In this document: in pieces, positions 2,101-5,729 of the stretch
How positions within the stretch are numbered: position 1 is the first letter of the stretch
Layout of the letters: the number at the start of each line of letters is the position of its first letter
Translations under genes and position numbers: made by a program
NCBI GenBank assembly: GCA_947460875.1
Contig: CANHGR010000003.1
Coordinates: 62,001 to 126,000, forward strand
Length of the DNA: 64,000 bases
Source of the DNA: Sphingobacteriaceae bacterium
GTDB lineage: Bacteria; Bacteroidota; Bacteroidia; Sphingobacteriales; Sphingobacteriaceae
Direction: 5' to 3'
The notes under the pieces: generated by a model
The model's database searches: none
The model's input: the letters and a program-made list of their open reading frames with translations, nothing else
What the model was told of the DNA's origin: nothing

Positions 2101-2213
2101 ATGGACATTAATCGGAACGTCTAAGCGACCGGCTGCCCTTTATAGGATGGCGGGCGTATTAACGCAGAAAGATTTCGGAAGCCAAAACGTAGAAATGATT
2201 ATTCCACCGTAAC
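2101..2213. repeat. Left copy of diverged direct repeat containing a displaced glmS tail
   Basis: Aligned without gaps to 3796-3908, this stretch matches at about 73 of 113 positions by hand count, rising to 29 of 35 over 2179-2213 against 3874-3908. Read on the minus strand, positions 2216 to 2199 encode S-V-T-V-E-stop, exactly the last residues of GlmS. Identity with glmS ends right there, so this is a second, cut-off copy of the glmS 3' end plus the sequence just downstream of it. Confidence 0.7.
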
Positions 2214-2354
2214 GGAATGTGAGCCATTAACCGTCGAGTAACCTCACCTTGTCACACGCTTTTCCGCCTAACACCTCCTATTTGTGTTAAAACTAAGGCA
2301 AATCGACTATTTATCGCTTTTTTTTCGTATCTTACATAAGATAACTTCCGTATC

Positions 2355-2990
2355 ATGAAAAAGTCACTTTTCACCTGTAGTTTTCTTTTTTTCTTTTTGG
2401 CTACAAGTTTTGCCCAAAACGATTCCACCATAACCGTTAACTTACTGCAAGACTTGTCGCTAGCAGATTCGAGCCAGGTGCAATTGTTACCAGACAAAAT
2501 GATTCCCAGCCAACGTTTATTATGGGGCCCAAAGGGTTTAATGAGACAATTTAATAGGTTTGAGTTAACGCCAGAAAAACGACAAAATGAATTGAAATTA
2601 CGCCGTTCCATGTTAGTTACACACCAAATATTGGGGTTTACGACCCTTGGCGGCATGGTAGCGCAAGGTATTATTGGGGGTAAACTATACAACGGCCGCT
2701 ACGATTTAAAAGATGCCCACGAAGCGCTAGGTGCTGCTGTGAATATAAGCTATTTTACTACGGCCTCTCTATCGCTATTTGCTCCACCCAAAGCACTCGA
2801 TGAGCGTAAAGGATATAGTAGTATTAAGCTGCATAAATGGTTGGCAGTTGTACACATGTCGGCTATGATTGCTACCAATGTATTAGCCGGTATGACAGAA
2901 GATCACCCTAATTTAAAAGCATACCACCGGGCAGCAGCCTATACTGCATTTGGTGCTTTTGCTGCTTCTATGATTGTGATAAAATTCTAA
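2355..2990 (+). CDS. Cytochrome b561-like membrane protein with signal peptide
   Basis: The 211-residue product has a cleavable signal peptide (MKKSLFTCSFLFFFLATSFA), a polar segment to about residue 90, then four hydrophobic segments. Histidines sit in or next to these segments: VTHQILG, KDAHEALG, KLHKWLAVVHMS and AYHRAAAY. This pattern fits a four-helix b-type haem protein of the cytochrome b561 kind, which would move electrons across or within the inner membrane. The YceI gene follows after three bases, and bacterial b561 proteins are often paired with YceI proteins, which supports the call. No haem-binding proof exists in sequence alone. Both genes lie within the islet flanked by glmS-tail repeats. 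Confidence 0.6.
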   Translation: MKKSLFTCSFLFFFLATSFAQNDSTITVNLLQDLSLADSSQVQLLPDKMIPSQRLLWGPKGLMRQFNRFELTPEKRQNELKLRRSMLVTHQILGFTTLGGMVAQGIIGGKLYNGRYDLKDAHEALGAAVNISYFTTASLSLFAPPKALDERKGYSSIKLHKWLAVVHMSAMIATNVLAGMTEDHPNLKAYHRAAAYTAFGAFAASMIVIKF

Positions 2991-2993
2991 CCT

Positions 2994-3539
2994 ATGAAAA
3001 ATATATTTTTCATACTGCTGTTCATTGGATTAGCCAGCAGTGCAATTGCACAAGATGCAGCCACTGTAAAAGTTTTTGCCGATAAAAAATTATCGAGTAT
3101 AACCTATACCATGCGCCATCCCTTACATACCTGGGATGGTACGAGCAAAGACGTGAATTCGGTTATTTTAACGAATGCCGACAAATCGCAACTCACACAA
3201 GTAGCAGTTAGTGTCAAATTGAGCTCTTTTGATAGCAAAAATGCCAACCGAGACTCGCACATGATTGAAGTGGCTGAAGGGTTAAAATACCCAACTATTA
3301 GTTTTTCTAGCACCTCCATTCAAACCCAAGGTGATATAATGGTGGTTAAAGGAAATGTAAGTTTCCATGGGGTTACCCAGCCCATCAACTTTGAAGCAAA
3401 ACGAAAAATGGCAGGAACTGATTTAGAAATAAGTGGTGCATTTACACTCAAAATGACCCAGTTCAAAATTGAGCCTCCTAGTTTGCTAGCTGTAGCCGCA
3501 GATGATGAGTTTAAACTTAACTTCAAGGTTGTTTATTGA
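2994..3539 (+). CDS. YceI family periplasmic lipid-binding protein
   Basis: The 181-residue product has a signal peptide ending near AIAQDAA and the YceI beta-barrel pattern: an early YTMRHPLHTW segment, SFDSKNANRDSHM in the middle (the family's D..NRD.H motif), a YPTISF stretch, GNVSFHGVTQPI, and a C-terminal F-L-F strand. YceI proteins are lipocalin-like folds that bind polyisoprenoids or other amphiphiles in the periplasm; some act near quinone-linked redox proteins. It follows the b561-like gene by three bases, so the two are one transcription unit. A short secreted-peptide ORF follows it. Confidence 0.85.
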   Translation: MKNIFFILLFIGLASSAIAQDAATVKVFADKKLSSITYTMRHPLHTWDGTSKDVNSVILTNADKSQLTQVAVSVKLSSFDSKNANRDSHMIEVAEGLKYPTISFSSTSIQTQGDIMVVKGNVSFHGVTQPINFEAKRKMAGTDLEISGAFTLKMTQFKIEPPSLLAVAADDEFKLNFKVVY

Positions 3540-3568
3540 TTGGCATTAGATTAAGCTTTATTCTTGGC

Positions 3569-3736
3569 ATGAAAAAAGTATTCGTGTTGGCAGTCAATTT
3601 TTTATGCTTAACCATGGCACAGGCTCAAGAGTGCAGCATAGATTGGCAATGCCACAGAAGCTGTAGAAGCTTGTACCCGGACACCATTCAGGCTATGCTT
3701 AAAGACATCGATATAGCTGTTGAGACCCTTAGATAA
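3569..3736 (+). CDS. Short secreted peptide or truncated exported protein
   Basis: The reading frame gives 55 residues starting MKKVFVLAVNFLCLTMAQAQ, a good Sec signal peptide, followed by only about 35 residues containing three cysteines (CSIDWQCHRSC). An upstream in-frame ATG overlapping the YceI stop is possible but would bury the signal peptide, so I prefer 3569. I do not recognise the mature part. It may be a genuine small secreted Cys peptide or the 5' remnant of a longer exported protein cut by rearrangement, since it ends only about 60 bp before the glmS-tail repeat. Confidence 0.35.
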   Translation: MKKVFVLAVNFLCLTMAQAQECSIDWQCHRSCRSLYPDTIQAMLKDIDIAVETLR

Positions 3737-3795
3737 AGACGAATAGTTTGTTTTAGTGCCACAATTTAAAGGTCAATTCAGCTGTCCCTTTGATA

Positions 3796-3908
3796 ATGGA
3801 TTATACGTGGGGCCGCCAACCGAGCCGACGCACTTCATGCCTTGGCGAGGGTACTAACCAACCTAATTTACGCAAGCCAAAATCCGGACATGATTATTCC
3901 ACGGTAAC
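3796..3908. repeat. Right copy of direct repeat, overlapping the glmS stop
   Basis: This copy covers the last five codons and stop of the intact glmS and about 98 bp downstream of it. It matches 2101-2213 without gaps. The best-conserved part (3874-3908) straddles the glmS stop codon at 3894-3896. Confidence 0.7.
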
Positions 3909-5729
3909 AGACTTTGCCAAATTTCTAGGTTGATCTACGTTGCATCCACGCATTACCGCTATGTGGTAAGCTAACAATTGTAGCGGGATTGTAGCGAGCA
4001 AGGGAAGAAAAATTTCGTCGGTATCAGGGATTTCGATTACAAAGTCGGCCATTTTCTTTACTTCAGTGTCGCCTTCGGTAACTATTGCAATAACGATTCC
4101 TTTTCTCGCTTTAACTTCTTGGATATTACTAATAACTTTTTCGTAAGACGAGTTCTTTGTAGCAATGAATATCACAGGCATCTCTTCATCTATTAATGCA
4201 ATCGGGCCATGTTTCATCTCAGCTGCAGGGTAGCCTTCAGCATGAATGTATGATATTTCCTTTAATTTTAGTGCGCCCTCTAATGCTACAGGAAATCCGG
4301 TTCCTCTTCCTAGAAATAAGAAATTCGAAGAGTCTTTAAACTCGGCAGCGATCGCTTTAACACTTAAGTTCGACTCAAGGCATTTTTCAACTAATCGTGG
4401 AATTTGGTCAAGCCCAGTTAAAAGACCTATTAACTCAGACTGTTTCATTGTTCCCCTTTGCTGTGCCATATATAGTGCCATCAATGTTAACACTGTAACC
4501 TGGGCGGTAAATGCTTTTGTTGATGCAACACCAATTTCTGGACCGGCATGCGTATATACGCCTGCATGGGTTAATCTTGGAATAGATGAGCCGACAACAT
4601 TACATATACCGAAGATAGTTGCCCCTCTACTTTTAGCAAGTTCAATTGCTGCCATAGTATCGGCAGTCTCGCCTGATTGGGATATAGCAATAACTAAATC
4701 CTTTTCAGAAATAATCGGATTTCTATATCTAAATTCTGATGCGTATTCGACTTCAACTGGCATTCTCGCATACTCTTCAATAAGATACTCGCCGACCAGG
4801 CCCGCATGCCAGGAAGTTCCACAAGCGACAATGACAATTCGATCAATGTTTTTTAGCTTCTCCGTATAATCTTTAATACCGCCAAGTTGAACATTTCCCT
4901 CATTCGGATAAATTCTACCACGTAAACAATCTTTAATTGACCGAGGTTGTTCAAATATTTCTTTAAGCATAAAATGATCATAACCTCCTTTTTCAAGCAT
5001 CTCTAGCTTTAACTCCAGTTCATGAATAGATGGAGTTTGTACTACATTGTCTATGTTCTTAATTAACAGCTCATTTTGCTCGATATAGACAATCTCATTA
5101 TCCTTTAAATAGATAACATTTTTAGTGTATTCAACAATAGGCGACGCATCTGATGCCACAAAATACTCTCCATTTCCTACGCCGATGAGCAAGGGACTAC
5201 CTTTTCTAGCAGCAATAAGCAGATCCGGTTCATCCTTACTTAAAATCACGATTGCATAAGCACCTATCACCGCATTTAATGCAACTCGTACAGCATCTCG
5301 TAGATCTAGATTATCTTGTTTCTTTATTTCTTCAATAAGATGTATTAGTACTTCAGTATCTGTATCGCTTCTAAAGATATGTCCCCTTTCTACTAGTTCC
5401 TCCTTTAAAACTGCATAATTCTCAATTATTCCGTTGTGAATAATCGCCAACTTTCCATCTCCGGACATATGGGGATGCGAATTAACGTCGGAGGGAATAC
5501 CGTGGGTAGCCCAACGGGTATGGCCCATGCCAATGCTACCTTCAATATTTTTATCTATAACAAACCGCTCAAGTTCACTTACTTTGCCAGCTTTCTTATA
5601 GATACTTAAGTTGCCGTTCATCAGCGCAACACCTGCACTATCATACCCGCGATATTCAAGACGATGCAGCCCTTTTATTATTACTTCCCAAGCCTTGCGA
5701 TGACCGATATAACCAACTATTCCACACAT
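3894..5729 (-). CDS. glmS: Glutamine-fructose-6-phosphate aminotransferase (isomerizing)
   Basis: The 611-residue enzyme makes glucosamine-6-phosphate from fructose-6-phosphate and glutamine, the first step towards UDP-GlcNAc for peptidoglycan and lipid A. Met1-Cys2 gives the N-terminal nucleophile (MCGIVGYIG), followed by the glutaminase motifs HTRWATHG and SDTDTEVL. Two SIS isomerase domains follow (CGTSWHAG, SQSGETADT), then the conserved EGALKLKEISY helix. The C-terminus NLAKSVTVE is the near-universal one. Length is normal. Downstream (to the left) lies the islet whose repeats copy this 3' end. DUF4270 and the GT5-like gene lie upstream in the same direction, with a 63 bp gap. Confidence 0.97.
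   Translation of the reverse strand: MCGIVGYIGHRKAWEVIIKGLHRLEYRGYDSAGVALMNGNLSIYKKAGKVSELERFVIDKNIEGSIGMGHTRWATHGIPSDVNSHPHMSGDGKLAIIHNGIIENYAVLKEELVERGHIFRSDTDTEVLIHLIEEIKKQDNLDLRDAVRVALNAVIGAYAIVILSKDEPDLLIAARKGSPLLIGVGNGEYFVASDASPIVEYTKNVIYLKDNEIVYIEQNELLIKNIDNVVQTPSIHELELKLEMLEKGGYDHFMLKEIFEQPRSIKDCLRGRIYPNEGNVQLGGIKDYTEKLKNIDRIVIVACGTSWHAGLVGEYLIEEYARMPVEVEYASEFRYRNPIISEKDLVIAISQSGETADTMAAIELAKSRGATIFGICNVVGSSIPRLTHAGVYTHAGPEIGVASTKAFTAQVTVLTLMALYMAQQRGTMKQSELIGLLTGLDQIPRLVEKCLESNLSVKAIAAEFKDSSNFLFLGRGTGFPVALEGALKLKEISYIHAEGYPAAEMKHGPIALIDEEMPVIFIATKNSSYEKVISNIQEVKARKGIVIAIVTEGDTEVKKMADFVIEIPDTDEIFLPLLATIPLQLLAYHIAVMRGCNVDQPRNLAKSVTVE

Follow-up and report, generated by a model that had tools for sequence, protein, structure and literature searches.

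Tn7 inserts past the stop codon of glmS and leaves a single tail of the gene, which it is not known to copy; integrative islands of the tyrosine-recombinase type rebuild the 3' end of the gene that they target. An island with Tn7 genes lies right after glmS in B. cereus, according to the part of that report available to us (PMC2359905), and the target selectors of Tn7 are the subject of another report, likewise available in part (PMC10293859). For freshwater Methylophilaceae, the available part of a third account (PMC10872708) describes additive islands that have the final 20 bp of a gene as direct repeats. The literature that we searched, some of it in partial text, yielded no report of glmS-tail copies in Bacteroidota.

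Here we describe the DNA downstream of glmS in a freshwater member of the Sphingobacteriaceae (genus g1, of which a second member was not found among 201 family genomes), within a window of 64,000 bases, by which we mean the whole stretch of DNA analysed. The region between the tail copies is probably what is left of a small, eroded genomic island.

Layout of the glmS 3' locus

The features of the locus, in window coordinates, are as follows.

2101–2213, minus strand: left 113-base repeat, a second glmS tail (SVTVE-stop, 2216–2199) with similar post-stop bases
2214–2226, no strand: 13 bases, read directly, that separate the left repeat from the third tail, which is inverted
2227–2241, plus strand: third glmS-tail copy (LTVE-stop), at the donor-glmS end of the islet and inverted to the other two
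2230–3720, plus strand: acquired segment, homologous to DNA just past glmS in two genomes of genus g6 and reversed relative to glmS
2355–2990, plus strand: intact, acquired gene for a 211-aa protein (p211) with no Pfam or NCBIfam match
2994–3539, plus strand: intact, acquired YceI-family gene (PF04264, E 1.1e-22)
3569–3736, plus strand: truncated 5' part of a GDPD gene, with homology to ~3722 (the GDPD of locus L039 has 298 aa)
3721–3795, no strand: stretch that separates the broken GDPD start from the right repeat, with only short weak matches (the site searches for homology also took in 3740–3795)
3796–3908, minus strand: right 113-base repeat, the glmS tail and ~95 bases past its stop
3894–5729, minus strand: glmS, intact and the recipient's own, with SIS and GATase domains; its last codons (3911–3894) form the right tail core

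The first-pass annotation had aligned the two outer sites without gaps at about 65%, and the recount agrees: 73 of 113 positions are identical, six mismatches fall in the last 35 columns, as its core figure of 29/35 implied, and the left copy does read S-V-T-V-E-stop on the minus strand, with similarity ending at the S codon. The right copy is the true end of glmS. The islet is thus flanked by direct repeats of the end of its target gene, in two imperfect copies. The next best placing of the left copy in the window, on either strand, reaches 52/113 (mean 28.7, sd 4.6, leaving aside placings within 150 bases of the left copy itself). Outside the core the repeats match at 53/89 positions, compared with a maximum of 38 in 5000 first-order Markov simulations, and a model built from both copies finds no places but these two in the host's own genome at E ≤ 10. 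Their G+C content is 46 and 51%, against 26% in the left intergenic flank and 39.5% in the window.

Several identities for these sites were considered. One reading frame is open in both, with 14, 10 and 16 mismatches at its three codon positions, a spread without clear codon constraint, and coding was rejected. A remnant of the LysR-type gene that lies between glmS and SOD in L049 gave no match. Stable folding of the attC type was not detected in the sites as single-stranded DNA (z-scores 0.46, −0.17, 0.64 and 0.69), and there was no Rfam match at E ≤ 1. In tblastx on the fetched DNA of relatives, each repeat copy found only the other, among the matches listed.

The interval between the repeats had been annotated as holding three plus-strand genes; two of these are intact and the third is a truncated, decayed GDPD start, comprising the first ~54 codons. 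Homology to g6 stops at ~3720, inside the gene. In the stretch QGHRGCRGLYPENT, which we take to be the active-site region of the family, three glycines are altered and one codon is missing. Of the 54 codons, 13 differ synonymously and 9 non-synonymously from L039, and 10 and 12, respectively, from L040, whereas L039 and L040 differ from each other by 11 and 3. No other match to this GDPD was found in the host's own genome at E ≤ 0.001. By comparison, p211 and YceI together differ from L039 by 70 synonymous and 41 non-synonymous codons of 394, both frames being open; such a pattern is to be expected from constraint, part of which acted in the donor line. The gene for p211 immediately precedes that for YceI in 13 of 13 loci (L081–L093) from Sphingobacteriaceae and Chitinophagaceae, and p211–YceI is a conserved two-gene unit. 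Neither gene was confirmed on viral contigs.

Origin of the acquired segment

The segment 2230–3720 was almost certainly acquired horizontally, by transfer between genera. It is 87.6% identical (1495 columns) to the DNA directly past glmS in L039 (genome G068) and 87.4% identical (1496 columns) to that in L040 (genome G005); both genomes belong to g6, another genus of Sphingobacteriaceae than the host's. Islet identity at fourfold sites is 110/148 with L039 and 106/147 with L040 (72–74%), and the two g6 loci agree with each other at 129/161. The corresponding values for glmS are 24.5% and 26.7%, and those for flanking genes against L039 are 24/66 (SOD), 24/81 (TerC) and 30/110 (methyltransferase, MT). 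At the protein level, p211 is 91–92% identical to its counterparts in L039 and L040 and 75–76% to those in two further g6 loci, L050 and L054; YceI is 88% identical to that of L039, 90% to that of L040 and 62–66% to those of L050 and L054.

Phylogeny points the same way. In trees of 14 rows each, the window's p211 and YceI join L081 (MAG TE-08apr19-169) and L082 (a Lake Pavin MAG), presumably the L039/L040 loci, with support of 96/95 and 97/98; the window's end branch is longer in the p211 tree (0.056) and very short in the YceI tree (0.0037), for which the program issued a warning about meeting long branches. In the GlmS tree (30 rows), the six g6 sequences form a clade (support 99/98) that excludes the window's GlmS, whose own place within the other genera lacks firm support. 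It is this discordance of the islet, in phylogeny and in fourfold identity, with glmS and the flanking genes that indicates transfer. We infer that the direction was from g6 to this species, because the arrangement is intact in g6 and broken here.

The gene order in L039 and L040 is glmS, p211, YceI, GDPD (298 or 295 aa), gamma-glutamyltranspeptidase, a small ORF and SOD. L050 and L054 likewise carry p211 and YceI downstream of glmS, and in another g6 genome (G078, L010) the first 60 residues of p211 follow glmS before the contig ends. The first-pass annotation had asked whether the islet is missing from some relatives, and 36 of 40 relatives' flanks carry neither p211 nor YceI in the DNA fetched (3.5 kb for L044, ~15 kb for the others); the 4 that carry both are all from g6. 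It had also named, as an outcome that would count against its reading, that all relatives hold the genes without a second glmS tail, which is true of the four g6 carriers, the donor-side lineage, and not of the other 36.

Donor and recipient loci are orthologous. Beyond genes for DUF1800 and DUF1501 proteins, the host's genome continues with genes that we take to be SOD, tadA, the methyltransferase, TerC, a NadR-like gene and PnuC. Relatives show these genes in the same order, and the agreement over SOD, tadA, MT and TerC establishes the orthology; SOD lies downstream of glmS in 25/40 of the relatives' fetched flanks. Either homologous anchoring or site-specific targeting could account for the orthologous position.

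The glmS–SOD interval itself varies within genus g6: it spans ~9 kb in L050 and L054, where it carries PepSY and, in L050, photolyase, among others, compared with ~4.5 kb in L039 and L040. In genus g22 the intervals are ~11 kb (L042) and ~8.5 kb (L046). In the host's genome, the DUF1800 and DUF1501 genes (94–1725; L079:18505–19944) separate SOD from the left repeat; that for DUF1800 matched nothing in the glmS flanks of the 40 relatives, and this stretch may be a second acquired unit. A Pfam scan of 70 of the 142 ORFs downstream of glmS showed no integrase or transposase among the best 25 of 80 families.

The genome is in 26 contigs, so a junction made by assembly or binning has to be considered. 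We regard such an artefact as very improbable: the islet lies within one contig of 234,673 bases, contamination is 0.03%, the repeats are too dissimilar to mislead an assembler easily, and the GDPD start is decayed, unlike that of a fresh chimaera.

Orientation, junctions and candidate mechanism

The segment runs with the glmS direction in g6 and against it here. Its homology to g6 begins within the final three sense codons and the stop of glmS. Read on the plus strand, the left end of the segment (2227–2241) gives LTVE-stop, so that the segment seems to start in its own glmS tail. This third tail faces the left, recipient-type tail across a few bases. At 9 of its 12 final bases it agrees with L040, the three differences being at third positions; taken by itself, it could be chance. 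The locus gives a clear transfer between genera resolved to a gene's last codons, with cargo drawn from the orthologous locus, reversed, and starting in the glmS tail.

Our preferred reading, to which we assign a probability of about 0.45, is that a small genomic islet, now decayed, was exchanged at the tail of glmS and then inverted. A 1.49-kb piece of g6 DNA, carrying the donor glmS tail, p211, YceI and the GDPD start, would have entered the orthologous glmS 3' locus. The exchange would have taken place at the last 12–18 bp of glmS, serving as the attachment core for a site-specific recombinase that has since been lost. The piece would then have been reversed when the stretch between the true glmS tail and an oppositely placed one was inverted. 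Flipping 2227–3911 back would give the g6 order of glmS stop, CCTCACC, p211, YceI and GDPD start, and one inversion between the tails at 2227–2241 and 3894–3911 is therefore the simplest route to the present arrangement from a g6-like one. The repeats would in that case become inverted arms round a 13-base centre, like abutted element ends.

Site-specific exchange is favoured because the left copy and the g6 homology are both cut at the glmS tail; taking all its forms together, we rate it as close to an even bet, perhaps slightly better. When the last 245 bases of the recipient's glmS are compared in 40-base blocks, no clear donor tract is seen further into the gene, which mildly favours site-specific targeting. 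The blocks match L039 at 26 to 31 positions and the very last block at 34/40, so that a very short homologous anchor is possible. The first-pass annotation had proposed an element that inserted in the glmS tail and then lost its recombination genes. The foreign DNA, the extra tail and the missing recombination gene are in keeping with this, but a single clean insertion is not supported, because the cargo comes from the same locus of another genus, is inverted and is accompanied by a third tail.

Against the islet reading stand the missing recombinase, the lack of relatives of the 113-base sites in the DNA searched, which makes them only putative element ends, and the count of convincing second tails among relatives (0/40). 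No recombinase domain (Pfam) occurs in the islet's three ORFs, and the contig that carries glmS holds no tyrosine recombinase (PF00589, E ≤ 1e-5), either here or in G005, G029, G046 and G068. The genome-wide search, which covered PF00589 and TniQ, found three PF00589 matches elsewhere in the host's own genome (open frames of 333, 302 and 132 aa). Conceivably the repeats act as non-autonomous ends on which a recombinase works in trans, such as the host's own tyrosine recombinases, and the glmS tail is an exchange and inversion site by which segments from downstream of glmS move between genera at one locus with no recombinase carried by an element, an idea that we consider improbable.

A more serious competitor, which we consider possible though not probable, is illegitimate capture, in which a g6 fragment was joined through microhomology or template switching in inverted glmS tails with no dedicated recombinase, and a back-slip duplicated the tail with 95 bases. 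The absence of a tyrosine recombinase from the contig fits this, as does a right end that lies within GDPD at no visible site; the tail homology at the left junction is very short, and the V-T codons (GTNAC) are palindromic in themselves. Yet two boundaries coincide, to within a few bases, at the same codons, and duplicates made at the time of capture should barely exceed the divergence between islet and donor. The repeats outside the core match at 60% without a gap, compared with 86/112 and 3–4 gap columns for the islet leader against g6. The greater divergence of the repeats suggests that they were perhaps already unlike when the islet arrived, and that they may not stem from the islet's event at all.

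Another rival is accretion, in which two related elements with similar ends abutting glmS integrated in succession, the reversed islet being the cargo of the second. Two direct copies comprising the tail and similar post-stop sequence would suit such a history, as would their G+C content, higher than that of the left flank. Accretion alone leaves the reversed donor tail unexplained, however, and its ends have no further copies, save short weak matches, in the host's own genome, the family and class draws, phages or plasmids; we hold it unlikely.

The right site, compared with the host's own genome, 399 family and 395 class genomes (the host's being included in each draw), found nothing else but short weak matches, and the left site found no further copy in 121 family genomes with the same exception. 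A model of the two sequences, run on 16 genomes, returned the two copies and weak matches. Viral contigs (by pattern search), phages (right site only) and plasmids gave only short weak matches, among them one of 28 bases in plasmids (E 0.5). Larger elements with the same ends, for which the first-pass annotation had proposed a search of related genomes, did not emerge from the family and class draws, phages or plasmids. Ten of 14 weak loci in other genomes were opened, and three proved to be glmS tails and seven chance-like. The weak model matches in G005 (E 0.20) and G076 (E 0.34) are both gapped; that in G076, 12 kb from glmS, is taken as chance because it sits in an open frame of 341 codons and, at a score of 19, is equalled by other relatives' flanks, which reach up to 20.

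The 40 flanks, all from other genera, have a single clear tail each and show no convincing second tail near glmS in the fetched DNA; the one tail-like match, in L045, has 3 mismatches over 18 bases and lies 13.9 kb away from glmS. With a strict tail pattern applied to 399 genomes, the host's own genome has two matches 1.7 kb apart, and no other genome has two as close together, among the matches listed.

Comparison with known systems

The first-pass annotation had also invoked attTn7. Tn7 targets the 3' end of glmS, and the B. cereus island sets a precedent, but a Tn7-like insertion is scarcely credible here: Tn7 would not be expected to copy the tail, whereas a second clear and a third short tail are present, and the host's own genome has no TniQ match at E ≤ 1. 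In four g6 genomes, TniQ gave nothing over the cut-off and two broken sub-threshold matches, both in G029; in all five genomes the contig with glmS is free of TniQ matches.

If a recombinase was responsible for the islet, glmS would be a tail-copying integration site as well as a Tn7 address, and islets at the ends of protein genes could be found through repeated gene tails. Otherwise, the locus would be a worked example of an integrase-less islet arising by illegitimate capture.

With Tn7 and Tn7-like islands at attTn7 the islet shares its chromosomal address; it differs in having no TniQ match or recognised ends, and in that the tail itself is copied. Like islands of the tyrosine-recombinase type, it has direct gene-tail repeats around foreign DNA, but it has no recombinase, its repeats are imperfect and a third core is inverted. 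The tRNA-Lys islands of Ca. Methylopumilus, as far as the available part of the report describes them (PMC10872708), likewise combine a freshwater host, direct repeats of a host gene's end and variable cargo, theirs being 330 bp–42 kb. Compared with those islands, the islet lies at a protein gene, glmS, and not at a tRNA gene, its direct repeats are two imperfect copies, and its cargo is reversed and begins with its own donor tail.
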